IMG/VR virus record: IMGVR_UViG_3300033149_005152
Location: 34,586 to 98,585 of that record
Direction: 5' to 3' (one strand)
Length of the DNA: 64,000 bases
Origin: a virus
The notes under the pieces are model-generated. The model did not search any database. It had not been told where the DNA came from and saw nothing but the letters and a program-made list of their open reading frames with translations. Below are positions 38,210 to 61,151 of the stretch, one piece after another. The stretch's first letter is position 1. The number at the start of each line of letters is the position of its first letter. Made by a program: the position numbers and the translations under genes.

Positions 38210-39064
38210 TTATCGAATATAAAAACGACCTTTTTGTGGAATTCCAGGAAATCCACCAAATCTTTCGTAATTACCATGAGATTTACAATCAGTAAACGTT
38301 TTTTTACAAGTAGTTAAAGCCCCAAAATACCCACATTCAGTTCCTATTTTATATAAAGACGTAGTATCTATTGCGGTAGGCATCGCAGTAACTAAAGTAA
38401 CACCACCCGCTAATTTCTTAGCTATTACCGAACTACTACCTGAATTTGCACCACTATAAATATAAACAACTCTACCAACAACTTTTGTAGCTACACCTAA
38501 AACATCAGAGTCAATAAGAGTAACTTTATCAGAACTTGCTTCAGCAGTACCAGTATAATAAGGAGTATATTTATAAACCCACTGACATAAATCTCTTTGA
38601 TACCGGCGAATAGGAATATCTATCGTATGTAAATTAACAGAACTACAAGTAAATTTCGCATCGTTTTCTCCTATATGAACTCTCGAAATATAAAATTTTT
38701 CTTTTATACAAGCATCTTTATCATCAAGATTATCCCTAAATACAGTTATAATAACAACTTGTAATCCTGATAAACCACTACCATGATGCAAAAGGCTGTG
38801 AATATACCTATCAATATTCGGATAAATAAACTCAACAGTAGGAATTTCCCCCCTGTTACTTATTTCAATTCTTTCATGATGTACTCCCGACTTTGTATAT
38901 GTTTGAGGAGCATCAGTATCAGGTTCAAAATAATCCACGTCATCAATATCCTGAGCAAGATAAAGATATGAGTTACTATCTATTTGGACCCTATAAAGTG
39001 TTATAGGTTGATTTTCTAGTTTATCTTTTTGAGTTCTAAATGGCTGTGTAATATCTATAGGCAT
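38210..39064 (-). CDS. gpL-like minor tail protein with Fe-S-type cysteines
   Basis: 284 residues. Beta-rich core (about 10-150) then a C-terminal part with four cysteines: DLCQW, ECGYFG, TTCKK and TDCKSH, ending in RFGGFPGIPQKG, the signature of lambda gpL/DUF2163-type proteins. In lambda gpL the C-terminal cysteines bind an Fe-S cluster. Directly upstream of the K-like gene, as in lambda (M-L-K-I-J). Confidence 0.78.
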   Translation of the reverse strand: MPIDITQPFRTQKDKLENQPITLYRVQIDSNSYLYLAQDIDDVDYFEPDTDAPQTYTKSGVHHERIEISNRGEIPTVEFIYPNIDRYIHSLLHHGSGLSGLQVVIITVFRDNLDDKDACIKEKFYISRVHIGENDAKFTCSSVNLHTIDIPIRRYQRDLCQWVYKYTPYYTGTAEASSDKVTLIDSDVLGVATKVVGRVVYIYSGANSGSSSVIAKKLAGGVTLVTAMPTAIDTTSLYKIGTECGYFGALTTCKKTFTDCKSHGNYERFGGFPGIPQKGRFYIR

Positions 39065-40101
39065 TATTTATTTTTCCTCTTCTTTCTTCGATAAGTAGAT
39101 GCAGTAACTCCACCAATACCCATAACAGTAGATGGATATAACCTCTTTTTCCTACGCATTTTCATTTTTGATTTATATTTTCTTTCAGCTCTCGCTTGGC
39201 GAGATGCTATTAGTTTTGTTCTTCTTATTGCTTCTGCTTTTCTTACAGACATCTCAGCCTTTCTAGCTCTTTTCGCAGGAATTAATTTTTTAGAAATAGC
39301 AGCAGTTTCATAATCAATAAGTCTTCTTCTCATTTCATTTGTAGAATATTTACCTAATTTTGGTTTTTTAGATGCCTCCGCCAAGGCACGTTCCAAATGA
39401 GGAATATCTACCTTTTTTATAATTTTTGCTGATTCTGTTAACTTCCAAATTTTGTACCGATCAACTTCCCCAGTTCCTGATCTACCCTTTCTTACTTCTT
39501 TTTTTATCAAATTACCAATTTTCCTCAATAATTTCTTCTTGGATCGTAACGCAGCCGCAGCTTCACTTTTATTATAATCAGATATAGATTTCAAATTTCG
39601 TCCCATTTCTGTAAAACCCGCAGAACCCAAATTAGACCTAACTTGCAAATAGCCCATATCACCTGTATAATAATGAGAAGGAGGTTTTGATCTTGCGTGC
39701 ATAACTTGAGAAGGGTATTCTTCACGAATGGGTTTAGGTAATTTTTCTCTTATGGCCACATTACGCCATCTCATTTTGCCACTTTTAGCCCTAGTAACTT
39801 TTTTACCCGTTATTTTTGCTAATTGTCTTGATTCTGTAGTAGGAACCCATATTCTTTTTCTTTCAGTAGGCCATCCTTCATATTTAGCAAGACGATCTAT
39901 AACTTCATCTCTTGAATACAAATTCACTTTTCTACTAACTCTTTTCTTTATATCCGATTTCGTCAAAGTTTCAATAGGGCGCACTTTGGCCTTTTTCATC
40001 ATTATCTCCTTGATCCTAGAATATGCAGTTTTCCTTATTTTACGAGTGGGAATTCCAAAAAACTCTTTTATTTTCCCTAGTTTATTAAATATTCTTGCCA
40101 A
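39064..40101 (-). CDS. Very basic protein with tag-like N-terminus
   Basis: 345 residues from TTG 40101, pI very high by eye. Starts MARIFNKLGKIKEFFG, an amphipathic basic helix shared with other late proteins, then Lys/Arg-rich helices throughout and an end MGIGGVTASTYRRKKRKNK. A segment RERALAEASKKPKLGKYSTNEMRRRLIDYETAAI resembles helical bundle regions of phage virion proteins. It sits between two tail genes (L-like and the other basic protein), so it is probably a virion component or DNA-binding. Function unknown. Confidence 0.62.
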   Translation of the reverse strand: MARIFNKLGKIKEFFGIPTRKIRKTAYSRIKEIMMKKAKVRPIETLTKSDIKKRVSRKVNLYSRDEVIDRLAKYEGWPTERKRIWVPTTESRQLAKITGKKVTRAKSGKMRWRNVAIREKLPKPIREEYPSQVMHARSKPPSHYYTGDMGYLQVRSNLGSAGFTEMGRNLKSISDYNKSEAAAALRSKKKLLRKIGNLIKKEVRKGRSGTGEVDRYKIWKLTESAKIIKKVDIPHLERALAEASKKPKLGKYSTNEMRRRLIDYETAAISKKLIPAKRARKAEMSVRKAEAIRRTKLIASRQARAERKYKSKMKMRRKKRLYPSTVMGIGGVTASTYRRKKRKNK

Positions 40102-40104
40102 TTA

Positions 40105-40674
40105 TTATTTCACACCTCGCTTTTTCTTCAAACGAAGAATAACATACCTTTTATTCTTATATTTAGTATAAACAAAATCCCTTTTAGGATAATTTTTTTT
40201 CAAATTCTTCAACATCCTTGTGCCAGAAACGGGCAAGACTATATCAGTAACCCTTAATCGTATCCCAGCATTTTCAGCTACTCTATTTTTTCTAATATTT
40301 AAATAAGCCCCGTAACCTAAAGAAGCACCGGAGACACCCAAAGATCCCCACATAATACCCGATAAGGTTTTATCTATCTTTCCATACGGGCTACTCCTAT
40401 ATTCTTTTTTAAATAACTCCTTTAACCTTTTTTCAGCTTCTAACTTTTTCTGCATTCTAGCTTTCGCTTTAACATTTATTCTTCTTTCAACAAATGGAGG
40501 TAAACCTTCTTTACCCCCACTTATAACCTCAAATTTATCCCTTGATCTTTCAACTTTATCATGTACACCCTTTGCTTTTGAAACTTTACCACCTTCTATA
40601 ACTCTAAGCTTATTTTTATTTCTATAAAATCTAGAAAATATTTTTCTAAGTTGTTCTAAAGATATTTTTACCAA
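40105..40674 (-). CDS. Basic protein with a glycine-rich hydrophobic segment
   Basis: 189 residues from TTG 40674 (GAGGAGG). Begins MVKISLEQLRKIFSRFYRNK, then charged regions, a hydrophobic glycine/serine segment (LSGIMWGSLGVSGASLGYGAYLN, about 105-127) and a basic tail. Same layout as other late basic proteins in this genome: basic amphipathic start, hydrophobic middle, Lys/Arg end. Function unknown. Confidence 0.62.
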   Translation of the reverse strand: MVKISLEQLRKIFSRFYRNKNKLRVIEGGKVSKAKGVHDKVERSRDKFEVISGGKEGLPPFVERRINVKAKARMQKKLEAEKRLKELFKKEYRSSPYGKIDKTLSGIMWGSLGVSGASLGYGAYLNIRKNRVAENAGIRLRVTDIVLPVSGTRMLKNLKKNYPKRDFVYTKYKNKRYVILRLKKKRGVK

Positions 40675-40680
40675 TTGTTA

Positions 40681-41286
40681 TTAAGCCTCCTCAAATTGCA
40701 AACCTACAGTAAACAAATGATCCATTATATTATTTTTATTCATATTAGAATTAGCAAATCTAACCTTATACGCCCTCATTACATTAGAATATATAGTTAA
40801 AGTATTTGTAATAGTATCCGTTGCAGTAAAAGAAATATATCCAGAACTTATTCCCGTTAACTGCCTTACTTCGTAATTATCTGCCCTTGTTTTTGAACCA
40901 GATTCCCAATTTATAATAATCACAAGATTTCCAGCCATACCAGGAGTAGTAGTAAACCTCGTGATGTTATTTACACCAATAGTATTTACACCAGGATTCG
41001 TAGCTATACTACATCTCGCCTCATAATGCCATGAAGGAATATAAAATCTATCACATCCACCCTTTACGGCATCAAAAAAATCTCCTATTTCCTCAACTTC
41101 CTCCCATGAAGTCACGGGATAAGGGGCAAAATTTAAATTAAAATAATACTTAGGTCTATTCCACTTATTTCTCGCCTGAACATATCCAGCCTCAAATGGA
41201 GTTTTCAAAGTTTTGAAAGTTCTTCCTTCTTTCCAAGTTGCTAGTATAGGTTCCCAATGAAATATTGTCAAAACTTCAGTACTCAT
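40681..41286 (-). CDS. gpM/DUF2460-like minor tail protein
   Basis: 201 residues, beta-rich. WNRPKYYFNLNFAPYPVTSWEEVEEIGDFFDAVKGGCDRFYIPSWHYEAR is typical of minor tail proteins that cap the tube near the tip (lambda M/DUF2460 type). It lies just after the tape-measure group and before the L-like gene. Overlaps the upstream gene by 4 bases. Confidence 0.68.
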   Translation of the reverse strand: MSTEVLTIFHWEPILATWKEGRTFKTLKTPFEAGYVQARNKWNRPKYYFNLNFAPYPVTSWEEVEEIGDFFDAVKGGCDRFYIPSWHYEARCSIATNPGVNTIGVNNITRFTTTPGMAGNLVIIINWESGSKTRADNYEVRQLTGISSGYISFTATDTITNTLTIYSNVMRAYKVRFANSNMNKNNIMDHLFTVGLQFEEA

Positions 41287-41594
41287 TTATCTCCACCATT
41301 ATTCATTCTATATTCTCGTGGATAAACCGATTTTAATATTTGCTTAATCAAGGCAATATCAATGTTCATTTTATTTAATTCCTTACGAATTTCTTCTTGA
41401 CTTTCATGATGTTTACAAATTAAATCATCAAACTTTTTTTCAAATTTTTCATCAAATTTCTTCAAACTAATTATTTTACTTTCAGCAACCGCAAATTTAT
41501 TACAATTATATACAATACCACCAATTACAGTAATTAATAAAAAGACAACAGAAATAATAAGTGTACCCCAATTAAATATTTTTTGGTTTTGCAA
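41283..41594 (-). CDS. Membrane-anchored coiled-coil protein (XhlA/holin-type layout)
   Basis: 103 residues from TTG 41594. A transmembrane helix (WGTLIISVVFLLITVIGGIVY) is followed by a coiled coil (FDEKFEKKFDDLICKHHESQEEIRKELNKM) and a polar end. The layout resembles XhlA-type proteins, but it starts just after the tape-measure stop, so a tail-associated role is equally possible. Confidence 0.58.
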   Translation of the reverse strand: MQNQKIFNWGTLIISVVFLLITVIGGIVYNCNKFAVAESKIISLKKFDEKFEKKFDDLICKHHESQEEIRKELNKMNIDIALIKQILKSVYPREYRMNNGGDK

Positions 41595-41597
41595 CTT

Positions 41598-44500
41598 TTA
41601 CATTCGCCCCCTTAACATTTTATTTAATTCCCTCTTTTCAGAATAATTTCTCATCACGCTATCTATACTTATTCTTCCAATCAATCCCTGCTCTTGAGCA
41701 AGTAATTTCTGAAAACTAGGAGCATCAACAGCACTAATATTAATCACGGTTATTCCAGACTCAGGTTCAATTCCTCCACCAGTATTCGCTCTTTCAACAG
41801 AAGTACGCCCCAATGCTTTTACAGCATTAGCATTAAGAATATACTCCCCTGAATGAATTGTGGCTAATCCGGATTTAGAAACATAACCTCCTGCTTGATG
41901 ACTATCAGGTATTCCCGAAGGAGTTAACAAATCAGTTACCTTTATAGGAGCTTTACCACCACCAACCTTACTATCACCACTAGGAAAAAGACCCATACCC
42001 CATTCAAGAAGTTTAAAAGCCATAAGCTGGGCAATCATCTTATTTAACGATCTTAAAAAATTTATTGCAAATTGCTTCCAAACATTATCTGCCTCTTTAA
42101 TATTTTCAGTCATATCCGCAAAGGCATCACCCAATCCCAAAACCGTTTGTTTAGCCATATCAGTAATAGCCTTTCCATATTCATATCTCCATGTTTTTAT
42201 ATCATCTTTAGATTCTTCAAAATGTTCTTTCATAGAATCCCAAATAGATATATTTTGAATTCTTGCTTTTTCTGCTTGAGCATATCTTAAAGAAGCAAGG
42301 CCAACTTCATCCCTTCGCATAATGGCTAACATCTTTTTCCGATGTATATATTCATCTTCCGTAATTTGTTTCATCTTTCGTGCATGTTCCAAAGCTAAAT
42401 CTTCTAATTCTCGATTTATTTGTTCTTCATGTGATTTAATTATATCATCAATTCGTAATTTAGTATTTTTTATTTCTTCATCAATAAGCTTCAATTGTTC
42501 CCCATATTGTTTTACCACTTTTAAATGATCTTTATAATCCATTTTTAATATTTTATACTTTTCTTCTTCAAATATTAAGAGTGAAGCAATTATATTTTTT
42601 CTTCTTTCTAATGCATCTAATTGTATTTCGCCCAATTTTTCCTGATAAACTTTTTCACTAATTTGATTAGTCGCTCTTAAACGATCCAATCTCACCCTTT
42701 CTCTCTCATCCATCTTTGTTTCCAAATCATTCCTGGCTTCCAATTCATCTTTTAATTCTTGCATTATTCTTTCGGCATCTTCCTTTCGTGCCGCACCTAT
42801 AGTAGATATTTCCTCATATTTTAAATTAATAAGTTTTTGAGCATATTCCTTTCTCCAAAGTTCTGCTCGATGAAAAAAGTCTTTCCTCTCGTCTTCGCTT
42901 ATTTTAGCAGCTTTCATATCTACCTTATACGCTATTACTCTTTGTTTATGCCGCATAAGTTCAGCATCTAATTCCTTCTTAGCCAATTCCATAACTCCTT
43001 TTGCATATTCTTCCTGAGACATTCTACCTTTTCTTAACTCTTGATCTAATTTTCCTCTTTCTTCTGCAATTTTATTTACAGAATCATGATAAGCTAATTC
43101 AAATGCCCTAAAATTCTCTTCTATTCTTCTAGCCGCAGCTTCAGGAGAATCCTCAATAGGTTGTAATGTAGCCAATACCTTTGAAGTTAATGGAAACTCA
43201 GCTTCCTTTATCAACTCTTTAAGCTCTTCTCCTGCTTTTATCACTTCCACTTTGAGCTTTGTTATACGTTTATCACGCTTTTCTTGATATTCCTCTGGAC
43301 CAAAAAGCATATCAAGAAGAAAATTTCTAGGCCCTTTTCTATACTTATCACCTTCTTTAGTAGCTTTTCTTGCCTTTTTACCCAACTCCTCATAGGCCGA
43401 AAAATATTTGGCACTTAACTTCTTCAAACCAACCTCAAAAGATTTAGCCATAATTTCAAAAGAAGAAGTAAAATATCCAGCAGATGCTTTAGAAGCATCC
43501 TCCATAGCACTACCAATTATTGACAATTCATCCTTTAATTCAGATAGGGCTTTACTTTCTTTTTTTATCTCTTTCGTATACTCCTTTGTATAACCTATGG
43601 ACCTTAATATTGCTTTTTCATCTTCTTTTTTTGCTTCTCTAAGCATCCCAAATAATTTAATAATAGCAGGCAAACTAACTTTATAAAGAATATAAAGAAG
43701 TGTCATCCATGCCGTTAAAGGAACAATCATCCTTGCTATAACAGCAGCAAGCATAACAAATCTAGTATAAAGAAATGTTAAAGACTTAAGAAGCACTCCC
43801 CTAATTAATGCCCCTAAAGTAGCCCCTTGAAGAGCTAATCCAGCTAATTTAACCTTCGTTTTTTCTGCCGCTTTACCAAGAACAGGAAATTTTTTAGCAA
43901 CTCTATCTACTGAAACAAAAATACCACCAAAAATAGCCGGAATTTTAAGATGTAAAATATACTTTGCAAATTTAATAAGCTGAGCAACAACCAAAAAACC
44001 AAAAGCAAATTTCAAAGCCTTACCAAATATTAACAAGGATGTTCCAATAAATCTATAAGCTTCACCTATAGCCCTCAAAACATTTGGAGGTATTTTTAAA
44101 ATAGCATCCGCAAATTTATTTAAAACCTCGTACCATACCATAAAAACACTTTCAGAAGGTTTTCCACCAAGTTTCTGTGCTATCAATTCTAAATTAGAAT
44201 GAAATAACTTTATCTGACCCGCCAAAGTCTCAACATTCGCCTGCATTGATTTTCCAAAAAATCTATCTAATATCTCTCTCAATGCCCTATACCTAACAAC
44301 ACTTTTTTCCACCTTTGTAAGACCTTTCCAAGATTTACCAAGTTCTTCTGTAAATTTTTCAACTTCATGCCCTGTTGAACCTAAATCAATACCATAACTT
44401 CTTAAATGCTGAGGAATGCCTTTAAAAGCCATATTTACTGCATCAATTATATCTAAAAAAGCACCTGGTTGACCAATAGAAGTAGCAAAATCAGAAATTC

Positions 44501-45146
44501 TTTCAATCAATTTGAAAATTTGATCAGCAGACATACCAGAAACTCTTGACATCTCTAACATGATCAATGTGCCTTGACTCAAAATTGCATTACTAATTCC
44601 AGTTACTCTATGCAAATCCTGCATTCTATCAACTATTTGATCTAAATTATGAGATAATGGTCCGGTAGTTTTCTCATAAATTTCCATTTGGGTTTTCAAT
44701 CCAAAAATAATTGTTTCTTGCTCCATAGCTGCTTCAGTCCATTGAGCAGAAGTAGCTAACAAATTTTTACCTATAACCTCGCTTAGATTACTAATTCCCA
44801 ACGTTAAAAGACCAACCTGCGCTGTCAATCCAAATGATAACTCACTTAACTTTAAAAAACCAGGAGCTAAAACAGCCACACTTCCACCAAGTGCTTGCGC
44901 AGAAACCCCCGCAGCACCAAAAACAGCAGAAACCCCCAACAATTTAGTTGCTAAATTAGTTAAAGTTTTTCCAAAAATATTATGAAGGGCTAAATCAGTC
45001 TTATGTAATTCATGACCAGTATGAATTACTTCTTTTTTGAATTCACGTAATGCTTTTGTACTCCCGTCAGCATCAACACCAAGCTTATAGGTAAATTTTC
45101 CAATAATATTTTCAAGCAAAACCAACACTCCCCATGTATTGCTCAT
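41598..45146 (-). CDS. Tail tape measure protein
   Basis: 1182 residues. N-terminal IGKFTYKLGVDADGSTKALREFKKEV and a long alpha-helical body, several hydrophobic stretches (about 370-390 and 450-500), then a C-terminal GGYVSKSGLATIHSGEYILNANAV, the tape-measure signature. Length of about 1170 residues predicts a tail of roughly 170-180 nm (inference from about 0.15 nm per residue). The start is ambiguous: ATG 45146 has AAGGA only 2 bases away; a TTG at 45119 overlapping the T stop is possible. Follows the G/GT chaperone genes. Confidence 0.88.
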   Translation of the reverse strand: MSNTWGVLVLLENIIGKFTYKLGVDADGSTKALREFKKEVIHTGHELHKTDLALHNIFGKTLTNLATKLLGVSAVFGAAGVSAQALGGSVAVLAPGFLKLSELSFGLTAQVGLLTLGISNLSEVIGKNLLATSAQWTEAAMEQETIIFGLKTQMEIYEKTTGPLSHNLDQIVDRMQDLHRVTGISNAILSQGTLIMLEMSRVSGMSADQIFKLIERISDFATSIGQPGAFLDIIDAVNMAFKGIPQHLRSYGIDLGSTGHEVEKFTEELGKSWKGLTKVEKSVVRYRALREILDRFFGKSMQANVETLAGQIKLFHSNLELIAQKLGGKPSESVFMVWYEVLNKFADAILKIPPNVLRAIGEAYRFIGTSLLIFGKALKFAFGFLVVAQLIKFAKYILHLKIPAIFGGIFVSVDRVAKKFPVLGKAAEKTKVKLAGLALQGATLGALIRGVLLKSLTFLYTRFVMLAAVIARMIVPLTAWMTLLYILYKVSLPAIIKLFGMLREAKKEDEKAILRSIGYTKEYTKEIKKESKALSELKDELSIIGSAMEDASKASAGYFTSSFEIMAKSFEVGLKKLSAKYFSAYEELGKKARKATKEGDKYRKGPRNFLLDMLFGPEEYQEKRDKRITKLKVEVIKAGEELKELIKEAEFPLTSKVLATLQPIEDSPEAAARRIEENFRAFELAYHDSVNKIAEERGKLDQELRKGRMSQEEYAKGVMELAKKELDAELMRHKQRVIAYKVDMKAAKISEDERKDFFHRAELWRKEYAQKLINLKYEEISTIGAARKEDAERIMQELKDELEARNDLETKMDERERVRLDRLRATNQISEKVYQEKLGEIQLDALERRKNIIASLLIFEEEKYKILKMDYKDHLKVVKQYGEQLKLIDEEIKNTKLRIDDIIKSHEEQINRELEDLALEHARKMKQITEDEYIHRKKMLAIMRRDEVGLASLRYAQAEKARIQNISIWDSMKEHFEESKDDIKTWRYEYGKAITDMAKQTVLGLGDAFADMTENIKEADNVWKQFAINFLRSLNKMIAQLMAFKLLEWGMGLFPSGDSKVGGGKAPIKVTDLLTPSGIPDSHQAGGYVSKSGLATIHSGEYILNANAVKALGRTSVERANTGGGIEPESGITVINISAVDAPSFQKLLAQEQGLIGRISIDSVMRNYSEKRELNKMLRGRM

Positions 45147-45815: not shown

Positions 45816-45938
45816 ATGATCCTCCTATTTATTATTAAAATTTATTATTAAAAAATAAGTTTTCCTTCTCTTATAGAATAGAAATTTATTTCTTATTTAT
45901 TTTACCTTCTTTCCCAACCAGCCCCCACATTATTCTAA

Positions 45939-46208
45939 CTACAAGATGCGTCTCTTTTTTCTCCTCTGAGGAGATCGGCCGTATGCTATATAACCCCCAA
46001 TATGACTTCTTGCCTGCCTTATTCTACGCCTGCCCATTACAGAAGCATATTTTCTACCATAACGCAATCTTTCACCTATATTACGCCTCAAAGACCCCAC
46101 ACTCCTACGCCGTCCAGCAGGAAGTCTTGTATAGTATCTTCCAGCCCTTTTCCTTGCACTTCCAACTAAATTTATTAATTTTTTCAATAAAGAACTATAT
46201 GCAGCCAA
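45939..46208 (-). CDS. Small arginine-rich late protein
   Basis: 89 residues from TTG 46208 with GGAGG. MAAYSSLLKKLINLVGSARKRAGRYYTRLPAGRR is an amphipathic basic start; the rest is Arg/Tyr/Gly-rich (RRSVGSLRRNIGERLRYGRKYASVMGRRRIRQARSHIGGYIAYGR). About one in four residues is Arg. Its place between the major tail protein and the G chaperone is unusual. Protamine-like composition suggests nucleic-acid or membrane contact; function unknown. Confidence 0.6.
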   Translation of the reverse strand: MAAYSSLLKKLINLVGSARKRAGRYYTRLPAGRRRSVGSLRRNIGERLRYGRKYASVMGRRRIRQARSHIGGYIAYGRSPQRRKKRRIL

Positions 46209-46241
46209 TCTACAATCCTCCTTTCATATTTTAAATTATTC

Positions 46242-47081: not shown

Positions 47082-47107
47082 TTATAAAGTCAGTCCTCCT
47101 TAAAATT

Positions 47108-47302
47108 TTATATTTTTTTCTTAAAACGTCTTTTTCCTAATAATTTTCTTGCTCTTTTCCTTGCTTTTTTCTTTCTTACTCTCTCAGGAAGGCTCAATCC
47201 TTTTGATGCTTTATCCCATTCAGCTACGACCTTAGAACTAATTTCACCTCTTTTTAACATGGCGTGAAATTTCCTCCGTTGTGCTTCAGATTTATATGGA
47301 AT
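47108..47302 (-). CDS. Small basic phage protein starting at ATT
   Basis: Frame 47302-47108 reads (I/M)PYKSEAQRRKFHAMLKRGEISSKVV AEWDKASKG...LPERVRKKKARKRARKLLG, a well-known small-phage-protein pattern (MP-x-KSEAQRR-x). The first codon of that pattern is ATT, preceded by AGAGGTGA six bases upstream; there is no ATG, GTG or TTG before residue 15. It ends in a long basic stretch. Confidence 0.62.
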   Translation of the reverse strand: MPYKSEAQRRKFHAMLKRGEISSKVVAEWDKASKGLSLPERVRKKKARKRARKLLGKRRFKKKI

Positions 47303-47308
47303 TTTTAA

Positions 47309-47380: not shown

Positions 47381-47382
47381 TA

Positions 47383-47757
47383 TTAATATTTTTCCCTTTT
47401 TTTACGTTTTTTAGAAATTTTGGGGTGTCGCAACGTACCATACTTTTTATAAAGTGCAGCCGAACTTAATCCAGTCGCCCCTAAAACAGCAGCTATACCC
47501 CCGTATTTTTTAGCAATTCGTTTTCTCTCCGCCGTAAATGGAGTTACTCCATATTTGTATCTGCGCCTAGTTGATCTAACAGCTCCTCCAACTCTATCTT
47601 TTACACCTCTAATTTTACGCCCTACAGCAAATTTACCACGCCTTGCCTTTGAAAGAGCTTCCCTTCCATATCTAGCGGGCTTAGCCTTAATTTTGGCTAA
47701 AAGCCTTCTTAATTGACCGATTCTCTTCATTGATCTTGCCATATTCGTTAATGCCAT
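47383..47757 (-). CDS. Basic protein with hydrophobic segment (tagged late family)
   Basis: 124 residues. MALTNMARSMKRIGQLRRLLAKIKAKPARYGREALSKARRGK is a long basic amphipathic start; a hydrophobic stretch YGGIAAVLGATGLSSAALYKKY (about 88-109) precedes KISKKRKKREKY. Same plan as the 83-residue gene at 48626 and the decayed copy next door. An internal ATG at codon 6 (MARSMKRIG) would also fit. Function unknown. Confidence 0.6.
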   Translation of the reverse strand: MALTNMARSMKRIGQLRRLLAKIKAKPARYGREALSKARRGKFAVGRKIRGVKDRVGGAVRSTRRRYKYGVTPFTAERKRIAKKYGGIAAVLGATGLSSAALYKKYGTLRHPKISKKRKKREKY

Positions 47758-47793
47758 TTATTAATTAGACCTCCCTTCTTAAATTTTTATAAA

Positions 47794-47920
47794 TTAATAT
47801 CTTTTCTTTTTGCATTTTTTCCTATCTTTATATTTTCTGGCAAACAACCCAACTAAACCACCACCAACACTACCTATCAACTAAAAGTTCTCTCAATTTT
47901 GAAATATTTAATCTTGCCAC
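47794..47920 (-). pseudogene. Frame-disrupted copy of a basic late gene
   Basis: GTG 47920 reads MARLNISKLRELLVDR and stops at 47870. A +1 step continues as IGSVGGGLVGLFARKYKDRKKCKKKRY to 47794, which has the glycine-rich hydrophobic segment and basic tail of the same family. The N-terminus matches the 83-residue protein (MARMNVGKLRELL). Either a decayed short paralogue or a programmed +1 frameshift. Confidence 0.5.
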
Positions 47921-47927
47921 TCTCCAA

Positions 47928-48541: not shown

Positions 48542-48625
48542 TTTTATTTACTCCTTTAAATTAAATCCATTTTAAATCAAGAACTAAAATCTTTTAAAAT
48601 TTTTGAATACCTTTTCTTATTAAAC

Positions 48626-48877
48626 TTAATCTTTTTTCTTTTTCTTTCTTATGCGTTTTTTTAGAGCATAACCACCATATAAACCAGCACCTATTTCAGT
48701 AGCTAAACCCATTCTTTCATAACGTTTTGGATTTTTGAGATAGGACTGCCTAGCTTTACTTCTACCCAATCTTATGCGACTTCTCATAGCCACATTCTTC
48801 CTCCATGCATGGTATCTAGCTTTTTTCTTTAATTTAGATAAAAGTTCTCTTAATTTTCCAACATTCATTCTTGCCAT
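48626..48877 (-). CDS. Small basic late protein with glycine-rich segment
   Basis: 83 residues: MARMNVGKLRELLSKLKKKARYHAWRKNVAMRSRIRLGRSKARQSYLKN, then MGLATEIGAGLYGGYALKK and RIRKKKKKD. A clean example of the family plan: amphipathic basic N-terminus, hydrophobic Gly-rich helix, Lys-rich tail. Ribosome site AAGGGGGG. The function is unknown; a membrane-inserting, DNA-binding or virion-packaged role could all fit. Confidence 0.62.
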   Translation of the reverse strand: MARMNVGKLRELLSKLKKKARYHAWRKNVAMRSRIRLGRSKARQSYLKNPKRYERMGLATEIGAGLYGGYALKKRIRKKKKKD

Positions 48878-49646: not shown

Positions 49647-52600
49647 TTATGAAATTCGAGTCATCTCAACAAATCTATCCACATTCATAGAAATAAATTC
49701 CCTAAATTCTTTTTCGGTTACAAACCATAATGTCTGCGGTTTATATTCACCTTTTGCATCCAAACCACCTATTCCACCAGCTAGAGTAAATGCTACTTGA
49801 AACGGAGGCATATTAGTTTCTTCCATTGGAATTCCAAATCTACCCAATCTCTCCAATGCTTGTTGTGTTACCACGGTAGATAATTTATGATAAATATTTT
49901 CAGGATTATCAAATCCAGCTTCTTTATAAATTCTATAAACTGACTTCAAATATCTTTCTCCATCCGCCCCTAATTTTCCTTCAAGAGCTTCTATCTCCCA
50001 ATTAGTTAAATTAATATAATCTCTCTGCATCAAAACTTTACCTAATTGTCTTTGTGGATGAAGCTGGCGATCCTTCTTTAATAATCTTAAATTTCTAAAG
50101 GCACATTTAGCACGTCTTTGCTCTTCAATAATATATCCAAAATGTGCTATATCTACGTCAGGCAACATCAATGCGGGCCATATGGGAGTATCCATACCAT
50201 TTTCCACATGTTCGTGGATACAATTGTGAACCACTATTCCATTAGCTACATAATTATGATTATCCTGAACCTCCATATTATAAACATCTGTTTTACCAAT
50301 TTTTTCTATTTTAGTAATTATATGATTTGATCTAAATCTTTCAAGATCACTTCTTCTTTGTATTTTTAATTCTTCCCATTTTTTTACTAATTCTGAAACA
50401 TCTTTATTATTCCTTTTATCATTTCTAATTTGTGCCAGCAATTTCCATTGTTCTTTAGACCATTTTTCTCTACTTTTTTGACCTATTTTCTTCTTTGTTT
50501 CTTCAGAATGATGTCTCCCAAAATTAGGATTATTTTTTCCACTCACATCATAATGATTTTTTGAAATCAACTTTTTTGTCCTTTCGGAAACAAATTTACC
50601 GAGGTGATGTAAAGAAACGTGATCCTTAGATTTCATTAATTCTAAATTATTAATAGAATTATTAAAAGTATTTTTATCTTTATGATGCCCATCTCCATCA
50701 AATTTACCATTCATAACTTCTAAAATATATCTATGTTCAGATACACGATTATTCTTTCTCAATATTTTGTCACTGCAATCAACATTATTTATTAACCAAT
50801 ATTTTTTTTCTAACATTCTTCTAAATGGTAAAAGTGAATCCCCAACTTTTAAATCTGATACATTTTTATAAATGTTATTGAATAACATCACCGGATGATT
50901 ACCGGTAATTTTCAACGAATCAACTTTTCCGGTATATCCATCTTTATACGTCATTTTGTATACATCAACATTTCTACCAATACATTGAACATCCAAAATT
51001 GGTTTTAATTGGAATTTATTTAATTTTCTATTATAAGAATAACAATATTCATCCTTATAATTATTTACTAAATCTTTTATTGGTATTCCATTGGGATATT
51101 TGGATAAATCTCTCGGCATATCAATACAAGTATCACCAGATACACAACCATAAAACTTATATCCTTTAAAATTTCTAAATAATCTAGCTGGAACATCTGG
51201 TGTTACGTCCTTTAAATCTATACTTAAATGTTGTTGTCTAATTATGAAACATTCAAAAATTTCAGTACCAACATACTTTCTAAGATTATGAGGTCTTACC
51301 AATAATTCATCTGCATCAATCCAAAGAATAAAATCTCCAGTAGCTTTTTCTATAGATTTATTTCTAGCCCAACCAAAATTAAACAACCCGTCCCCATCAG
51401 GATCATCAGTTTCTTCATATACTATTGCACCTAATTCCTTTGCAATTTCTACCGTTCTATCGGAAGAATTACATGAAACAACAATTATTTCATCCACTAC
51501 GTCCCTAAATGACTTAATACATCTTCCTATATTATCTTCTTCATTCTTAGCAATCATACAAGCAGAAACACTTTTATATGGTCTTGTTATCAATATCTTT
51601 TTATCTACATCATATTCTCCGGTTTCTCTACTTTTATCCTTATGATACCTTATTAACCATGCTGCTATTAAATCACCTCGTGGATTTATTGCAAGGGGGG
51701 AATGTTGCAATTCAAAATCTTTTTTCTTACCAAATATTTCTTTTAGATTATTAAATTTATAATGATGAATGTGGTATCTCGATTTCCCTTGTTTTTCATA
51801 TGATTGCCACTCCATAGGGCCACTAGGAATTGTAAATATAATTAATCCATCTTCAACACACAAATCTTCCATCATATCAATATATTTTTTGTAATCCACA
51901 ACATGTTCAAGAAATTCTCCCGCAACAACCACATCATATTTATCGCCTTTAAAATCTTTATGATAATCCTCTAAATCAGAATGAATAAATGTAGGCTTAG
52001 AAATATTTCTATCTAATTGCTCATTACAAAATTCCTTGGCTACCTGTAAAACACCCTCAGTAAAATCAATTCCCGTGTAATCCACTTCCGGATTTTTAAG
52101 CATAACAGTAGTCGCTATACCACCAGCACCACAACCCACATCTAAAACACGTAACTTATTATTCCCCTTTAATCTTCGTTCATCGGCTATAAATTCTGCT
52201 ACTGCACGAAACCTTGCATTAATCTTCCATTTATCATTCGCCCATAATGCAGTATTTTCATTAAAATATTGTTCCTTATCAATCCCAACATTATCCATAA
52301 TTTCCTGAGAAATTGGTAATTCCGGTAAATCTTCCCGTTTTGCAAGGTAATGGGCAGTAACATGATCTGAATAATAAGAAAGATTCTGCCATATTTTAGA
52401 CCAATTTTTATTTGCTCTTCGAGTAAATAATTCTATTATTTTATTTTCCCATTCTTCAGCCCTATCTTTCCAACTATAATTCTTTTTAACAAAATCAATT
52501 CCTTCTTTTGCTATCCTATCATACAATTGTTTATTTTCAACAAATTCAAAAACCCTATTCGTAAAATCTTTCTGGTATTTTTCCGTTTCTAAATCACCTT

Positions 52601-53507
52601 TAACTCTACATTCATGAAATGGAACTGTCTCTGGTAATGCAAAATTATCAGTGCATATAATAGGAGTTCCCATTACTTGAGCACTAATAGCAGAAATACA
52701 TTGTATTTCTGGGAACTTACTAGGATAAATCATTAACTTAGAAGATGCCAACCATCGTAAATAATCATCCTGTTTCAACTGTCCTAAATTTACAACATTA
52801 GGAGTTTGATTTATTAATTGATTAATATAATCATAAAATTGCGTTAGATGTTCCGGTATGGGTAATCCCCGTATATCATACCCACATAACATTAATTCAG
52901 CTCTAGGATTTCTTTTTAATATTTGAGGCCATATATTCTCCAGTAACTGTTGTAATCCACGTTCAGGTCTAGATGAATAAATAAATCTGTCCTCATTCTT
53001 TTTAATTTTCCCCTCATCAAATTCTTGCCATACTTGGTCTACCATATCCATATCAAGGCCATTAGATGTAACCCAGATATGAGGATCAATTTCAGGAAAT
53101 TCTTTTGTAAATAATTCTTTATGAAAACGGCTTAAACAAAAAATATGATCCGTTTGCCACAAATGAGATGCAAAATGTGCAACATTTACCAATACGTCAT
53201 GATTTACAAGAATATTTAATTCAGAACGAAATCTTGTAACCAACTGGTCATAAAACCTATATACAAAAAATACATCAAACTCGGCCACTGTTCTAATTTT
53301 ATCAAAATTATCAAAATGATGATAATATACCCCATCATACAGACCAGGAGCATCACAATTGCACCATACCTTCACATCATGTCCTCGTGCGGCCATTTCC
53401 TTGGCCATCATAAGAAGGGCTGTTTCTGATCCCCCTAAAGCCCTTTCTTTTAATGTTCGACCAGAAAACTTCAGACCCTGAGTGTAAAAACCTATTAAAA
53501 ACTTCAT
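49647..53507 (-). CDS. GT4-methyltransferase-GT2 fusion interrupted by an intein
   Basis: 1286 residues. Residues about 1-365: GT4-type glycosyltransferase (GGSETALLMMAKEMAARGHDVKVW; RFIYSSRPERGL). About 400-640: class I methyltransferase (VLDVGCGAGG, residues about 451-460). About 645-787: GT2 glycosyltransferase (ACMIAKNEEDNIGRCI; LWIDADELL near 726). The intein occupies 788-1095. The C-extein 1096-1286 (CIHEHVENG...) completes the GT2 and adds a helical tail. Predicted to glycosylate and methylate a virion or host surface glycan. Ribosome site AAGGAG. Confidence 0.88.
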   Translation of the reverse strand: MKFLIGFYTQGLKFSGRTLKERALGGSETALLMMAKEMAARGHDVKVWCNCDAPGLYDGVYYHHFDNFDKIRTVAEFDVFFVYRFYDQLVTRFRSELNILVNHDVLVNVAHFASHLWQTDHIFCLSRFHKELFTKEFPEIDPHIWVTSNGLDMDMVDQVWQEFDEGKIKKNEDRFIYSSRPERGLQQLLENIWPQILKRNPRAELMLCGYDIRGLPIPEHLTQFYDYINQLINQTPNVVNLGQLKQDDYLRWLASSKLMIYPSKFPEIQCISAISAQVMGTPIICTDNFALPETVPFHECRVKGDLETEKYQKDFTNRVFEFVENKQLYDRIAKEGIDFVKKNYSWKDRAEEWENKIIELFTRRANKNWSKIWQNLSYYSDHVTAHYLAKREDLPELPISQEIMDNVGIDKEQYFNENTALWANDKWKINARFRAVAEFIADERRLKGNNKLRVLDVGCGAGGIATTVMLKNPEVDYTGIDFTEGVLQVAKEFCNEQLDRNISKPTFIHSDLEDYHKDFKGDKYDVVVAGEFLEHVVDYKKYIDMMEDLCVEDGLIIFTIPSGPMEWQSYEKQGKSRYHIHHYKFNNLKEIFGKKKDFELQHSPLAINPRGDLIAAWLIRYHKDKSRETGEYDVDKKILITRPYKSVSACMIAKNEEDNIGRCIKSFRDVVDEIIVVSCNSSDRTVEIAKELGAIVYEETDDPDGDGLFNFGWARNKSIEKATGDFILWIDADELLVRPHNLRKYVGTEIFECFIIRQQHLSIDLKDVTPDVPARLFRNFKGYKFYGCVSGDTCIDMPRDLSKYPNGIPIKDLVNNYKDEYCYSYNRKLNKFQLKPILDVQCIGRNVDVYKMTYKDGYTGKVDSLKITGNHPVMLFNNIYKNVSDLKVGDSLLPFRRMLEKKYWLINNVDCSDKILRKNNRVSEHRYILEVMNGKFDGDGHHKDKNTFNNSINNLELMKSKDHVSLHHLGKFVSERTKKLISKNHYDVSGKNNPNFGRHHSEETKKKIGQKSREKWSKEQWKLLAQIRNDKRNNKDVSELVKKWEELKIQRRSDLERFRSNHIITKIEKIGKTDVYNMEVQDNHNYVANGIVVHNCIHEHVENGMDTPIWPALMLPDVDIAHFGYIIEEQRRAKCAFRNLRLLKKDRQLHPQRQLGKVLMQRDYINLTNWEIEALEGKLGADGERYLKSVYRIYKEAGFDNPENIYHKLSTVVTQQALERLGRFGIPMEETNMPPFQVAFTLAGGIGGLDAKGEYKPQTLWFVTEKEFREFISMNVDRFVEMTRIS
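50223..51146 (-). mobile_element. 308-residue intein with HNH homing endonuclease
   Basis: Begins with Cys788 in CVSGDTCIDMP (block A) and ends VHN|C (block G), with Cys1096 as +1 residue. Hint blocks include LKITGNHPVMLF (block B, T-x-x-H) and HNYVANGIVVHN (block F/G). Between them lies HRYILEVMNGKFDGDGHHKDKN-type HNH (HHKDKNTFNNSINNLELM...HVSLHH) and a NUMOD3-like SGKNNPNFGRHHSEETKKKI. All splicing residues expected for class 1 inteins are present, so splicing is likely. Confidence 0.92.
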
Positions 53508-53535
53508 TTAATCTCCTTTCCGGATAAATAATTAT

Positions 53536-54290: not shown

Positions 54291-54303
54291 TTCAACACCT
54301 CCT

Positions 54304-56697: not shown

Positions 56698-56730
56698 TAT
56701 TATATATTAAATTCACTTCCCTCCTAACTG

Positions 56731-57108
56731 TTATGGATAAGTCGTATTAGACAAAGCAACACTAGCATGTAATTTATCTCCTGAAACATTTGAAGTAACT
56801 TTGAGACCGATTGCAATAAACGAACATCGCTCTACAGGAATAGGAATTGCTTCCCCATAAGTTTCCGCTGCACTATATGGTTTTGTATACAAACTACACC
56901 ATATTGAACCTACCTTCCCTAGAATTATAAATTCAGCACTTGTAGATTTAAGAGTTTCAACCCAAACACCTACTGTTACTTCATTATAATCCTGCACATC
57001 TATTTGAACAGCAGTATGATCTGTTTCTCCCGCCTCATTAAAAATGTAATCAGTGGAAGTGCAATCAAAAGCAGTAAATATATCTTTTTCATGCGTTAAT
57101 ATAGCCAA
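56731..57108 (-). CDS. Structural-type beta protein
   Basis: 125 residues from TTG 57108 (AAAGGTGG). Beta-rich (DHTAVQIDVQDYNEVTVGVWVETLKSTSAEFIILGKVG...WCSLYTKP), ending SVALSNTTYP. Fits a fibre- or decoration-type domain, as small accessory virion proteins often do. No family recognised. Confidence 0.55.
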   Translation of the reverse strand: MAILTHEKDIFTAFDCTSTDYIFNEAGETDHTAVQIDVQDYNEVTVGVWVETLKSTSAEFIILGKVGSIWCSLYTKPYSAAETYGEAIPIPVERCSFIAIGLKVTSNVSGDKLHASVALSNTTYP

Positions 57109-57142
57109 TTATTTTTCACCCACCTTTTATTAATTAAATTCA

Positions 57143-57268
57143 TCACATATCTAATATTCTATAAACAGTACTTGAACTAATATTATAAAAATTAGCTAAT
57201 TTAGAACCATTTTCGCCTCTTAAATAAGAATCAACAATTTTTTGTTTAATTAAAATATCTAATTCCAT
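57143..57268 (-). CDS. Small helix-turn-helix protein (41 aa)
   Basis: ATG 57268 with AAGGA upstream encodes MELDILIKQKIVDSYLRGENGSKLANFYNISSSTVYRILDM. The segment ENGSKLANFYNISSSTVYRIL is a resolvase/transposase-type helix-turn-helix. It fills the gap between two structural-type genes. Could be a minimal regulator or a remnant of a recombinase. Confidence 0.6.
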   Translation of the reverse strand: MELDILIKQKIVDSYLRGENGSKLANFYNISSSTVYRILDM

Positions 57269-57303
57269 AAAATTCCTTTTTAATTTTTAGTTAATTAAAT
57301 TCA

Positions 57304-57702
57304 TCAATCGAGCGAAATTTTCAACGCATTCTCAGCAAACTTGGGAGTATCCCCATCACCAATTGCTTTAGCTGCATCTAATGATCCCCATGCAACCATA
57401 TTACCAGCTTCACTTGCCGAAAATAATCCAAAATAATTTATAGTACCCCATGAACCAGTCGCTTCTGGAAATACAATAGACGTTGCATTTTCCGTTGACC
57501 CACCAGCAGCAACATCCCAATCAGTCTCTAGAGTATGTACCCTCGCATAGCCATCACCGGAATGTTCCCCTGATAAATTAGTTTCTCCGCTCAGTCCAGT
57601 TCCTAAACCAACATACAAACTTTCATGAGGTGTCCAATTACGAGTACCACAACCAAATATATGATCTAATATTTCTAATTCATAAGCATCCGAAAGACTC
57701 AT
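57304..57702 (-). CDS. Phage structural protein of the small fibre-associated family
   Basis: 132 residues. ELEILDHIFGCGTRNWTPHESLYVGLGTGL... then GYARVHTLETDWDVAAGG, IVFPEATGSWGTINYFGLFSASEAGNMVAWGSL and GDTPKFAENALKISLD reproduce a phage-protein pattern I know well from many tailed phages (L-x-x-HVFGG... YVGLST... GGYARV... W-x-x-A... FPTATG-WGTVTHFGIF ... GDTPSFAAG-L-ITLD). Beta-rich virion protein, role unassigned. Confidence 0.72.
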   Translation of the reverse strand: MSLSDAYELEILDHIFGCGTRNWTPHESLYVGLGTGLSGETNLSGEHSGDGYARVHTLETDWDVAAGGSTENATSIVFPEATGSWGTINYFGLFSASEAGNMVAWGSLDAAKAIGDGDTPKFAENALKISLD

Positions 57703-57728
57703 TTTATTAATAAAACCTCCTTAAAATT

Positions 57729-58574
57729 TTATCTACTTCTTTTAACTAATTTTTTGTAATATTTTCTACCTACAGGAGTTTGAAATAATGGATATTCTTT
57801 TACAGGTATCTCCATAACTTTTATTCCCTTCTTTTTCAACAAAACATGAAAATCCCAATTATTTTTGCCCTTTTCCAAACGAGATTGAGACCACTTCTGA
57901 ACTTCTGTAGCACTAGGCCATTTTCCACCTTTCAACCTCTCATATCTATAAACAATTCTTTTATTGGGAACAACAATATCAAATATTTTCGGTTGTGTAA
58001 CAGCACTCAAATTTAAATCTTGTTGAGAAATAGTTTGTAATTTTTGCTGTTTCACTAAAAATCTTGTACTATTGTAAGCCATTTTACGTAATGAATATTC
58101 TTTACTTCTAGGATTCATCCGAGAAAGATCATATCTCATTTCTTTTTTTAACTCTTTTAGCTCTTTTATATCCATACCCATAACTTTTTTTAAGGGTACT
58201 TTAGGATGATTATGTATCATCCAACTATGCCCTTTCACCATAAAAGGCGATCTCACAAATTGCCCAGTCTTTACATCAAGAACACCAGTATCGGACATTC
58301 TTTCTAAACCAATAGAAGGAAGTCTTACTCCATATTTTTGTCCTTTTATAACTTGACCAGTAGAAGGTAAAAGTAAAGTTTCCCTCCCATAACTTGTCAA
58401 TGCTCTCTCAGGGATTAATCTTTCTCTTCTTCTTTTTCTAAAAGAACGAGCTAATAATTCACGTAAACGAGGATTTCTAGCTATAGATTTAGCAAACCTT
58501 TTTATCGGAACAGGTTGAGTAACCCATTTTCCCAACTTTTTAGAAAAAAATCTTAATTGTTTTATTCTGGCCAA
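57729..58574 (-). CDS. Basic protein with degenerate JAMM-like HNHP segment
   Basis: 281 residues from TTG 58574 (in-frame GTG at 58583 is weaker), giving MARIKQLRFFSKKLGKW. The middle has SDTGVLDVKTGQFVRSPFMVKGHSWMIHNHPKVP: HxHP is kept, but the Ser/Asp ending of JAMM is not (VMGMD instead of S-x-x-D). A C-terminal block KRIVYRYERLKGGKWPSATEV matches the end of the JAMM protein at 60402 (RKRVVNRFICRDGNWPTSQKY), so the two are diverged paralogues. Function unknown. Confidence 0.62.
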   Translation of the reverse strand: MARIKQLRFFSKKLGKWVTQPVPIKRFAKSIARNPRLRELLARSFRKRRRERLIPERALTSYGRETLLLPSTGQVIKGQKYGVRLPSIGLERMSDTGVLDVKTGQFVRSPFMVKGHSWMIHNHPKVPLKKVMGMDIKELKELKKEMRYDLSRMNPRSKEYSLRKMAYNSTRFLVKQQKLQTISQQDLNLSAVTQPKIFDIVVPNKRIVYRYERLKGGKWPSATEVQKWSQSRLEKGKNNWDFHVLLKKKGIKVMEIPVKEYPLFQTPVGRKYYKKLVKRSR

Positions 58575-58591
58575 TAAAGACACATCCCATT

Positions 58592-58921
58592 TTAAAATTC
58601 TATTTGTCTTAAAATTTCACCTTTTTCATTTTTCTTAAGTTTATCCTCTTTTTTAACTTCTTCTGATTCCTTAATGGTAAAAGGAGATTTCATCATCACT
58701 CCTGTTTTTAAATCAGCAATTAGAGGCCAATCATTACGCTTTCTCGCTTGTTCTGCTCTTTCTATTAATAATTCACCCACATTTATTTCCCCAGAAGTTG
58801 TCGTAAACCCATCAGAAGAATCTGAATATCCAAATTTTTCATAATACCACGAAGGCCACCCAGACGCATCAACTACCGTTATTAATGTACCATTATTACA
58901 CGCAGTATTCGCAGTATCCAT
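58592..58921 (-). CDS. Small hypothetical protein sharing the D-KTG-SPF motif
   Basis: 109 residues. N-terminal DTANTACNNGTLITVVDASGWPSWYYEKFGY looks beta-rich, and the C-terminal half carries DLKTGVMMKSPFTIKESE, which parallels DVKTGQFVRSPFMVKGHS in the neighbouring basic protein. Charged end. Possibly a virion component with a shared interaction motif. Confidence 0.55.
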   Translation of the reverse strand: MDTANTACNNGTLITVVDASGWPSWYYEKFGYSDSSDGFTTTSGEINVGELLIERAEQARKRNDWPLIADLKTGVMMKSPFTIKESEEVKKEDKLKKNEKGEILRQIEF

Positions 58922-59391
58922 TATTTACTCCTCCTAATATAAAAATCTATCTTTTTAACCTTCTCATAAGTTAAATTATCAACTATTAAAGTTGGAGAAC
59001 GATTCAATTTAGAAATCCACAACATTTGTATATCACAATTATGCACTTTCTTACTTTCATTTATTAAATCGTTAGCATCTTTAACTAAATAATGAGATAA
59101 TTTTGTATTTCTAAATTCCTCTACTATAGATTGAAACATAAGGTGGTGATGAATTCCGTCATAAAATAATCCCATACATCCTATAGGAACCCATTTTTCT
59201 GGATTTAAAGCTACAAGAATTAAACCTCCTCGCATCAAGAAACCATTTAAAGAAACATCGTCTATATAATCAAAACCACTATTATTAATAATGGGAATTA
59301 AACCTCTTAAATATTCTTTACTTTTATCAGCATCGTCACCCAACAACATTCGATTTGATAAAACAACTAATTTATAAAATTCATCTTTCAT
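58921..59391 (-). CDS. GNAT-like protein, weak
   Basis: 156 residues. IGCMGLFYDGIHHHLMFQSIVEEFRNTKLSHYLVKDANDLI resembles the V-x-x-x-R-x-x-x-x-x-x-x-L core of GNAT acetyltransferases, but the acetyl-CoA motif is not clear. It starts at the base after the upstream stop overlap. A modification role is only tentative. Confidence 0.42.
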   Translation of the reverse strand: MKDEFYKLVVLSNRMLLGDDADKSKEYLRGLIPIINNSGFDYIDDVSLNGFLMRGGLILVALNPEKWVPIGCMGLFYDGIHHHLMFQSIVEEFRNTKLSHYLVKDANDLINESKKVHNCDIQMLWISKLNRSPTLIVDNLTYEKVKKIDFYIRRSK

Positions 59392-59400
59392 AATTATTTC

Positions 59401-60081
59401 CTATGTTTTTTTGGTTCTTATTCCTCGTCTTATATAATAAGTTTTATTATTTCTTCTCACGGGATAATAAACCCTCTTTCTGCCTACTTTTTTAGGTCTG
59501 CCCACTTTCTTCTTAACTATTATGGGAGTTGGATAAAAATCAGGATACTCCCTTCTTAATAAGGATTCCCTCCTTAATTCATTTTCCATCCTTTTTCTAA
59601 ATTCTCTTTCTTTCCTTTGTTCTAGTTCTTTTGCTTTTTGAAGTAATTCCTTTCTCTTTCTTTCTTCCCTTATCCTACGAATTTTCATCTCTTGTCCACG
59701 TCTGCGCTCTCTTAATGCTTCTCTAGCTACCATTCCTACACCTGGTGCAGCTGCGGTTCCAAATAAAACATAAGGATGAGAAATAAATCTTTCAAATCTA
59801 TCTCCACCAGCTTCTAATTTCCTCAATTTCTCTTCGCTTTGTGAAATAAATTCTTCGCCCGCTTCTATTTCTCGCCTTAATTCCTGTGCTCTTCTGGTTT
59901 CCTTATTTTTTAATCTATTATATCGTTTTTTATTTGCGCTAATTGCTCTTTTTTCTTCATTAATAATTTTTTGTAAATCAGATATTTTTACTTTTTTTCT
60001 ACGAGCAAACTGTCTACCAGTCCGTCCAGTAGCATTTAAAATATGTCTTAAAGCCGAAAGTATACTACGTCCATATGCCAC
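59401..60081 (-). CDS. Basic coiled-coil protein with AT-hook-like tail
   Basis: 226 residues from GTG 60081 (GAGGTG). MAYGRSILSALRHILNATGRTGRQFARRKK is an amphipathic basic start, then a coiled coil (ISDLQKIINEEKRAISANKKRYNRLKNKE), a hydrophobic segment (YVLFGTAAAPGVGMVA), a second charged helix and a tail with VGRPKKVGRKR, similar to AT-hooks, and YYPVRRNNKTYYIRRG. Same layout as other late basic proteins. Likely DNA-binding or virion-associated. Confidence 0.6.
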   Translation of the reverse strand: MAYGRSILSALRHILNATGRTGRQFARRKKVKISDLQKIINEEKRAISANKKRYNRLKNKETRRAQELRREIEAGEEFISQSEEKLRKLEAGGDRFERFISHPYVLFGTAAAPGVGMVAREALRERRRGQEMKIRRIREERKRKELLQKAKELEQRKEREFRKRMENELRRESLLRREYPDFYPTPIIVKKKVGRPKKVGRKRVYYPVRRNNKTYYIRRGIRTKKT

Positions 60082-60084
60082 TTA

Positions 60085-60402
60085 TTATAATTCACCTCTT
60101 TCTATTAATAATCCTTCAAGAAGAACCATATAATTTATAATATCCCCGATTTTTTCAGTCCAATATTCTGATGGTTGAGATTGTCCTCTTTCCAATCTTT
60201 GAATATTTGTAATAATTCCAAACCAGTGCTTTGTAACTAAATTCATTAAATAACGTTCAGGTATTTCCCCTAATGCTTGAGAACCGTCTTTAAAATTACG
60301 TAATCTATCCTTTTCTACATATTCTTGCCCTTTTTGTAGTAATACCTGTTCACATTTCTCAAGTCTATTTTTTACTATCATATCAAATTCTTTTTGTGTC
60401 AT
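60085..60402 (-). CDS. DUF1599/MazG-like protein
   Basis: 105 residues. RLEKCEQVLLQKGQEYVEKDRLRNFKDGSQALG then VTKHWFGIITNIQRLER...YWTEKIGDIINYMVLLEGLLIERG follows DUF1599 (K-x-x-x-Y-x-x-x-D-x-L-x-NF ... E-K-x-x-DL-NY-x-x-L), a family linked to nucleotide modification or pyrophosphatase-like folds. Overlaps the upstream gene by 1 base. Confidence 0.65.
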   Translation of the reverse strand: MTQKEFDMIVKNRLEKCEQVLLQKGQEYVEKDRLRNFKDGSQALGEIPERYLMNLVTKHWFGIITNIQRLERGQSQPSEYWTEKIGDIINYMVLLEGLLIERGEL

Positions 60403-61151
60403 TATTTTCTCCCTTTAGACCATTTTCTTTGTCTTATTTTTCTAATAACTCTATCTAATTGTTTTTCTTTATATGTTATCCAATGATCATACTCTTTAGC
60501 TGCTTCTTTTGATACATTTTTCATAATTGGATGTTTTGAAAAAGGAATTACCTTCATTATCACATTTTCTTCAAGTTCACGTGGAACCTTTCCCTTTATT
60601 CTTGCCAAAACCTCATAATATTTTTGAGAAGTAGGCCAATTTCCATCTCTACATATAAACCTATTTACAACTCTTTTACGAGGATCAACAATATCCATAA
60701 TTTTTTCTTTATAATTTCTAGCAAGATAAACATCTGCGGTACTTGGTAATGCTATTCCCGAAGGATGATTGTGAATGTTATAACCTACACCAAGTTTTCT
60801 ACGCATTACTTCTAACGGCCTAAATCTTTTATCAAACTGGTCAAAATGTACGTTCTCTTTTCCTCCTACCACCCATTCTCGCTTAGGTTTAGCTCCTTTA
60901 CCTCTTTTTCTTAATGAAAAAGAAACTTCTCTTTTCTTACTTGCCAATGCTACAGGCATACCACCATATTTTTTACGTATTTTTCGCCGGATAAATTCAT
61001 CGGAAGTTAATTCAGTTTCTCCCAAAGCATAAATTTCATCCATTAACGTAGATAAAGTCTGTTTTTTCTTCCTTTTCGCTCTTTTATATCTCCTACTTTT
61101 ACCTAAAACGCCACGAAGTCTAAGCAGAGCAGCATATTTTTTCTTAGCCAA
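60402..61151 (-). CDS. JAMM-type metalloprotease-like protein
   Basis: 249 residues from TTG 61151 with AAGGAGGAG. MAKKKYAALLRLRGVLGKSRRYKRAKRKKK is a tag-like basic start. Then GYNIHNHPSGIALPSTADVYLARNY gives a perfect JAMM core (H-x-H-x7-S-x2-D), with Glu residues earlier (EIYALGETE). C-terminal DPRKRVVNRFICRDGNWPTSQKY is shared with the degenerate paralogue at 57729. In lambda gpK JAMM precedes NlpC; here it is a separate gene. May cleave a tail or ubiquitin-like partner (inference). Confidence 0.74.
   Translation of the reverse strand: MAKKKYAALLRLRGVLGKSRRYKRAKRKKKQTLSTLMDEIYALGETELTSDEFIRRKIRKKYGGMPVALASKKREVSFSLRKRGKGAKPKREWVVGGKENVHFDQFDKRFRPLEVMRRKLGVGYNIHNHPSGIALPSTADVYLARNYKEKIMDIVDPRKRVVNRFICRDGNWPTSQKYYEVLARIKGKVPRELEENVIMKVIPFSKHPIMKNVSKEAAKEYDHWITYKEKQLDRVIRKIRQRKWSKGRK

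Follow-up and report, generated by a model that had tools for sequence, protein, structure and literature searches.

How do strongly basic proteins with differing bodies come to begin alike, and what might the common beginning do? The question is raised by an uncultured tailed phage with about ten strongly basic proteins, which differ in their bodies and start with a similar short helix. We studied the window, that is, the whole 64,000-nucleotide stretch, which covers bases 34586-98585 of a virus record 98,585 bases long; coordinates prefixed C1 refer to the part of the same 98.6-kb genome beyond the window. The answer that we tentatively favor, as possible if short of probable, is that these tagged proteins are virion cargo that would work by analogy with the internal proteins of phage T4, which carry a capsid-targeting sequence (CTS).

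Genomic context and description of the tagged genes

Every called gene lies on the minus strand, the only strand that the gene caller scanned. Genes for the large terminase, the portal and the major head protein were recognized outside the window, and genes for tape-measure, distal-tail-like, tail assembly and NlpC/P60 proteins inside it. The nearest named phages are distant, with identities of about 23 to 28% for the portal and 28 to 31% for the capsid. All eight genes singled out in an earlier note on this DNA are present as ORFs that begin where it had placed them. Its remark that they stand between virion genes is true of most of them; five of the tagged basic genes are located among tail genes, not head genes.

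The eight genes, all on the minus strand, are named here by their start positions, with net charges per 100 residues. Gene 61151 (60402-61151; 249 amino acids [aa], +16.5) has the N-terminus MAKKKYAALLRLRGVLGKSRRYKR and a JAMM-like HNHPSG...D motif. Gene 60081 (59401-60081; 226 aa, +17.7) begins with MAYGRSILSALRHILNATGR, and its body is predicted by eye to be charged and coiled-coil-like. The JAMM paralogue 58574 (57729-58574; 281 aa, +16) begins with MARIKQLRFFSKKLGKW; an alternative GTG start at 58583 would give 284 aa. Two genes have a body that ends in a basic tail: 48877 (48626-48877; 83 aa, +30), in which MARMNVGKLRELLSKLKKK is followed by a Gly-rich part and a KKKKK tail, and 47757 (47383-47757; 124 aa, +29), in which MARSMKRIGQLRRLLAKIK is restored by an internal ATG and the body holds a Gly/Ala-rich segment. 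Gene 46208 (45939-46208; 89 aa, +30; N-terminus MAAYSSLLKKLINLVGSARKR) is flanked by major-tail-like and tail-chaperone-like genes, roles that gene order suggests and for which there was no family match. Finally, 40674 (40105-40674; 189 aa, +19) couples MVKISLEQLRKIFSRFYRNK to a Gly-rich middle, and 40101 (39064-40101; 345 aa, +20) runs from MARIFNKLGKIKEFFGIPTRK to the C-terminal end STVMGIGGVTASTYRRKKRKNK.

Translation starts at ATG in 48877 and 47757, at GTG in 60081 and at TTG in the other five. Shine-Dalgarno-like stretches, e.g., AGGAGG, precede most tagged genes and are weak or absent at 58574 and 40101. The basic proteins matched no family at cut-off in Pfam, PHROG or NCBIfam. A very basic 50-aa ORF beside the tagged genes (47108-47260; MLKRGEISSKVVAEWDKASKGLSLPERVRKKK...) has neither the N-terminal motif described below nor family matches.

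A short motif is shared by the N-termini

We applied an unsupervised Gibbs search to residues 2-31 of the eight proteins, with the background drawn from these same N-termini. One 8-residue motif, x-[KQ]-[LI]-[RK]-x-[LIF]-[LF]-[SGAN], was found in 8/8 genes (AALLRLRG, SALRHILN, IKQLRFFS, GKLRELLS, GQLRRLLA, SLLKKLIN, EQLRKIFS and GKIKEFFG). It scored 58.5, compared with 43.7 +/- 4.3 for residue shuffles, none of 200 reaching the observed value. In seven of the eight genes the motif starts within a 4-residue window, residues 6-9, a positional clustering matched by 0 of 200 shuffles. The score of an earlier Gibbs run was reached by 1 of 150 residue shuffles and by 1 of 150 shuffles that kept the hydrophobic/charged pattern. 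When ten late genes were selected by charge, the motif score again exceeded all 200 shuffles, but in a mixed register; because the best register differs in the 10- and 11-gene sets, that of the eight genes alone is used here.

The likeness is graded, since leave-one-out ranks among the genome's N-termini run from 1st for 48877, 2nd for 47757, 4th for 40674 and 5th for 40101, through moderate 10th and 11th places for 58574 and 61151, to 60081 and 46208, which fall below the best 26 listed. With a genome-wide amino-acid background, the eight-gene motif was not significant (21/200 shuffles), and the signal is short, because wider motifs of 11 to 12 residues in the same N-termini lacked clear significance.

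These limits bear on the main rival reading, which holds that duplication and composition are all there is: two small paralogue families plus independently basic genes, with an N-terminus that has no targeting function. The loss of significance with the other background or the wider motif speaks for it, as do the low leave-one-out scores of 60081 and 46208 and the fact that the eight genes had been picked in the earlier note partly for their N-terminal likeness. The motif and its position nevertheless beat shuffles across genes that otherwise have no detected similarity, and the charge-selected ten, chosen on another basis, did so for score. We consider this rival somewhat unlikely, though serious.

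Part of the likeness stems from gene duplication

A further argument for that rival is clear paralogy within the set. Genes 48877 and 47757 are related, with a z of 5.1 against local shuffles and a BLASTP E of 7e-4 in a single comparison. Between them lies the relic 47920 (47794-47920, minus strand), whose existence the earlier note had proposed and which we find to be real. It starts with GTG GCA AGA ..., and 32 of 39 start bases are identical to those of 48877; across 10,011 other gene-start pairs, the highest such count is 26. A six-frame scan recovered it too. As read by eye, this decayed copy retains the start MARLNISKLRELLVDR and, out of frame, the Gly-rich basic end GSVGGGLVGLFARKYKDRKKCKKKRY; because the two are joined out of frame, the relic looks internally deleted. 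Judged from their sequences, 48877, 47757 and the relic are true paralogues. A second group is the JAMM trio described below, and beyond these two groups the remaining likenesses among the tagged proteins are weak.

The claim of the same start on unrelated bodies is thus an overstatement, because ordinary duplication (48877/47757/relic and the JAMM trio) explains part of the likeness. What stands is that the N-termini are alike beyond composition, that the likeness lies about equally far from the start in each, and that the bodies differ.

Charge, nucleic acid binding and the membrane

Nine ORFs of at least 80 aa in the window have a net charge of at least +15 per 100, and eight of them are the genes named above. 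The ninth, 25289-26320, is a basic gene (+18 per 100) with a repeated KKRGRPVGSKN, AT-hook-like by eye, and without the N-terminal motif. The whole genome has eleven such ORFs, two of which lie outside the window and fit the set. In stretches of three other phages, no genuine gene of at least 80 aa reached +15 per 100, the sole two matches being antisense to annotated genes. A 199-aa product of C1:21497-22096, outside the window, is strongly basic (+22.6 per 100) and has no clear motif; its gene lies two genes before the polyacidic gene at the scaffold position.

The tagged proteins might instead bind DNA or RNA, condensing or neutralizing the packaged DNA, and either stay in the particle or act on DNA in the cell, with the helix as part of the binding surface. 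Their net charge of +16 to +30 per 100 fits this, and so do basic tails at both ends: the last 15 residues of the eight proteins carry +6 to +8, among the highest values in the genome. Nucleic acid binding alone would leave the shared start at a fixed position and the JAMM-type bodies unexplained, and we regard it as unlikely.

A different role for the helix would be to target the inner membrane, either at a late stage of infection or as the genome enters. The N-termini are amphipathic, their helical moment exceeding that of shuffles overall (Stouffer z of 3.7 over 11 proteins), and several members have Gly/Ala-rich segments. By eye, the Gly-rich stretches near the C-terminus are alike in 48877, 47757, the relic, 40101 and 46208. 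A transmembrane segment is usually taken as 19 residues with a mean hydropathy of about 1.6 or more; the highest 19-residue Kyte-Doolittle mean in the set is 1.19, and basic residues stand on both flanks. The glycine-rich membrane segment of the earlier note thus finds no support, and the membrane reading is weakened because hydrophobicity is so low. We hold it to be improbable.

A JAMM-type trio within the tagged set

Gene 61151 and C1:626-1381, outside the window, are paralogues (E of 5e-12), and 58574 joins the pair at E values of 5e-6 and about 0.002. Alignments read directly show that 61151 and C1:626-1381 share H-x-H-x10-D and a conserved upstream Glu with the JAMM/RadC-like (JAB) metallopeptidase domain. 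The HNHP motif is borne by 58574 as well, a correction to the earlier note. In contrast to the JAB domain, 58574 has an insertion of about 55 residues after HNHP, which breaks the JAMM spacing. The score of 61151 against Pfam RadC was 17.8 bits, below the cut-off of 22.1, and the NCBIfam JAMM match fell far below cut-off. Structure models were of low confidence (pLDDT 60 and 53), and Foldseek returned zero matches for them. We call these proteins JAMM-like on the strength of the motif residues, with profile scores below cut-off and no fold match.

Beyond the window, the genome also has genes for papain-like, trypsin-like and metallopeptidase enzymes (C1:4582-5475, C1:9950-10795 and C1:33034-33564).

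A polyacidic protein at the scaffold position and comparison with T4

The gene immediately before the major capsid gene encodes a protein of net charge -56, with -24 in its worst 30 residues. In five GTDB relatives the protein in the same pre-capsid position is near neutral: its net charge ranges from -7 to +3, and its most acidic 30 residues carry -5 to -9. This compares one genome with five, and counterparts are matched by position. By its position, the polyacidic protein is a candidate scaffold. The protein encoded at 12665-13486, distant from the head genes, has a net charge of -19 per 100 and acidic repeats in tandem (DEPDEEDEL); because such repeats are found off the head cluster too, the polyacidic tract may be an unrelated feature.

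The internal proteins of T4 are basic and are targeted to the head core by an N-terminal propeptide of 10 to 19 residues; their bodies vary among phages, and one is a counter-defence protein (PMC9026906; PMC3012670). As in T4 IPI, IPII and IPIII with their CTS, a short common N-terminus here precedes differing basic bodies. In both phages the accessory genes are scattered. The head core of T4 is acidic, and that of this phage would be so too if the polyacidic protein at the scaffold position forms it. The tract of -24 in 30 residues is comparable to that of T4 gp67 (-22 in 30 residues); T4 gp22 has -10.4 per 100. In contrast, the tag sequence differs from the T4 CTS, the charge is much higher than the +2 to +5 per 100 of IPI/IPII/IPIII, and, in place of T4 tail genes, tape-measure and lambda-like tail-tip genes are present. 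No consistent [LI]xE-type cleavage site follows the tag; any [LIV]xE within residues 1-40 occurs in only 5 of 11 proteins, at varying positions. We do not class the set as a T4 CTS member, because this T4-type site is lacking. Neither Pfam nor PHROG gave a protease match between the portal and capsid genes, and no prohead protease was recognized there. The ejected head proteins of the SPN3US type (PMC7411985; PMC10052503) offer a likeness at the level of the idea, namely that a phage packs many accessory proteins along with its DNA; SPN3US uses a prohead protease.

A model for the tagged proteins

According to our cargo model, the tagged proteins, strongly basic and accessory, would be expressed late, enter the virion and be delivered together with the DNA. 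Their amphipathic, basic N-terminal helix would dock on the assembling head core, represented by the polyacidic protein at the scaffold position, and the basic bodies would remain with the packaged DNA. On infection, some of the tagged proteins would enter the host cell, where the JAMM-type members may act as peptidases. Docking, packaging, ejection and peptidase activity are steps that we infer. In favor of the model we count the motif at a fixed distance from the start, the number of highly basic ORFs, the polyacidic protein with near-neutral counterparts in five relatives whose late clusters have no comparable basic genes, the T4 precedent and the placement of many of the genes between virion genes. 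Against it we count that five genes lie among tail genes, that no tagged relatives of the queried proteins were found, that neither a consistent cleavage site nor a prohead protease was recognized, that T4 internal proteins are much less basic, that the acidic tract may be an unrelated feature, and that duplication accounts for part of the likeness.

A more specific form of this model is rather unlikely in our estimate. It posits a tag for encapsidation that is modular and has no sequence relation to that of T4. In a phage whose tail genes are lambda-like, this tag would load a set of basic effectors, JAMM-type peptidases among them, onto the polyacidic core of the head, and the genome would show cargo genes that were duplicated and that decayed. 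If the cargo reading is true, accessory proteins would be packed by way of a short common N-terminus outside the T4-like phages as well, and uncultured phages could be searched for injected proteins with a sequence handle. The pairing of an acidic core with basic cargo is open to direct test.

Search for relatives

In IMG/VR, no relatives were found for 47757, 61151, the JAMM pair or the 48877/47757 pair, and none for the last pair in GTDB genomes; the single-protein scans rely on exact 8-residue stretches and detect close relatives only. A tblastn search of 50,697 phages gave no relatives for 61151, 40101, 40674 or 60081, and the terminase had none in IMG/VR. Capsid searches at first returned distant phages or viral contigs only and then five GTDB loci at 32 to 38% identity. 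Among the ORFs around the capsid gene of these five loci there was no comparable basic gene; the basic ORFs flagged there were few, short and mostly overlapping or antisense calls. By eye we had suspected synteny of the tail genes with these loci. Profile comparison gave it no support, so we dropped the description of the basic genes as inserted between conserved tail genes.

Other genes in the genome

Three more observations concern other genes of the phage. The Gp80-like fiber/head protein encoded at 57304-57702 has a 53% identical counterpart on a genome contig of Phycisphaerales. At 49647-53507, an intein carrying HNH and NUMOD3 motifs splits a glycosyltransferase/methyltransferase fusion; on two of the GTDB contigs, the capsid gene is directly followed by a relative that lacks the later parts. 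Finally, three otherwise different proteins, encoded at 58592-58921 and, outside the window, at C1:3220-3660 and C1:7678-8010, end in a common C-terminal tail (GEILRQIEF, GELLRQIEF and KKLLRAIEFD, respectively).
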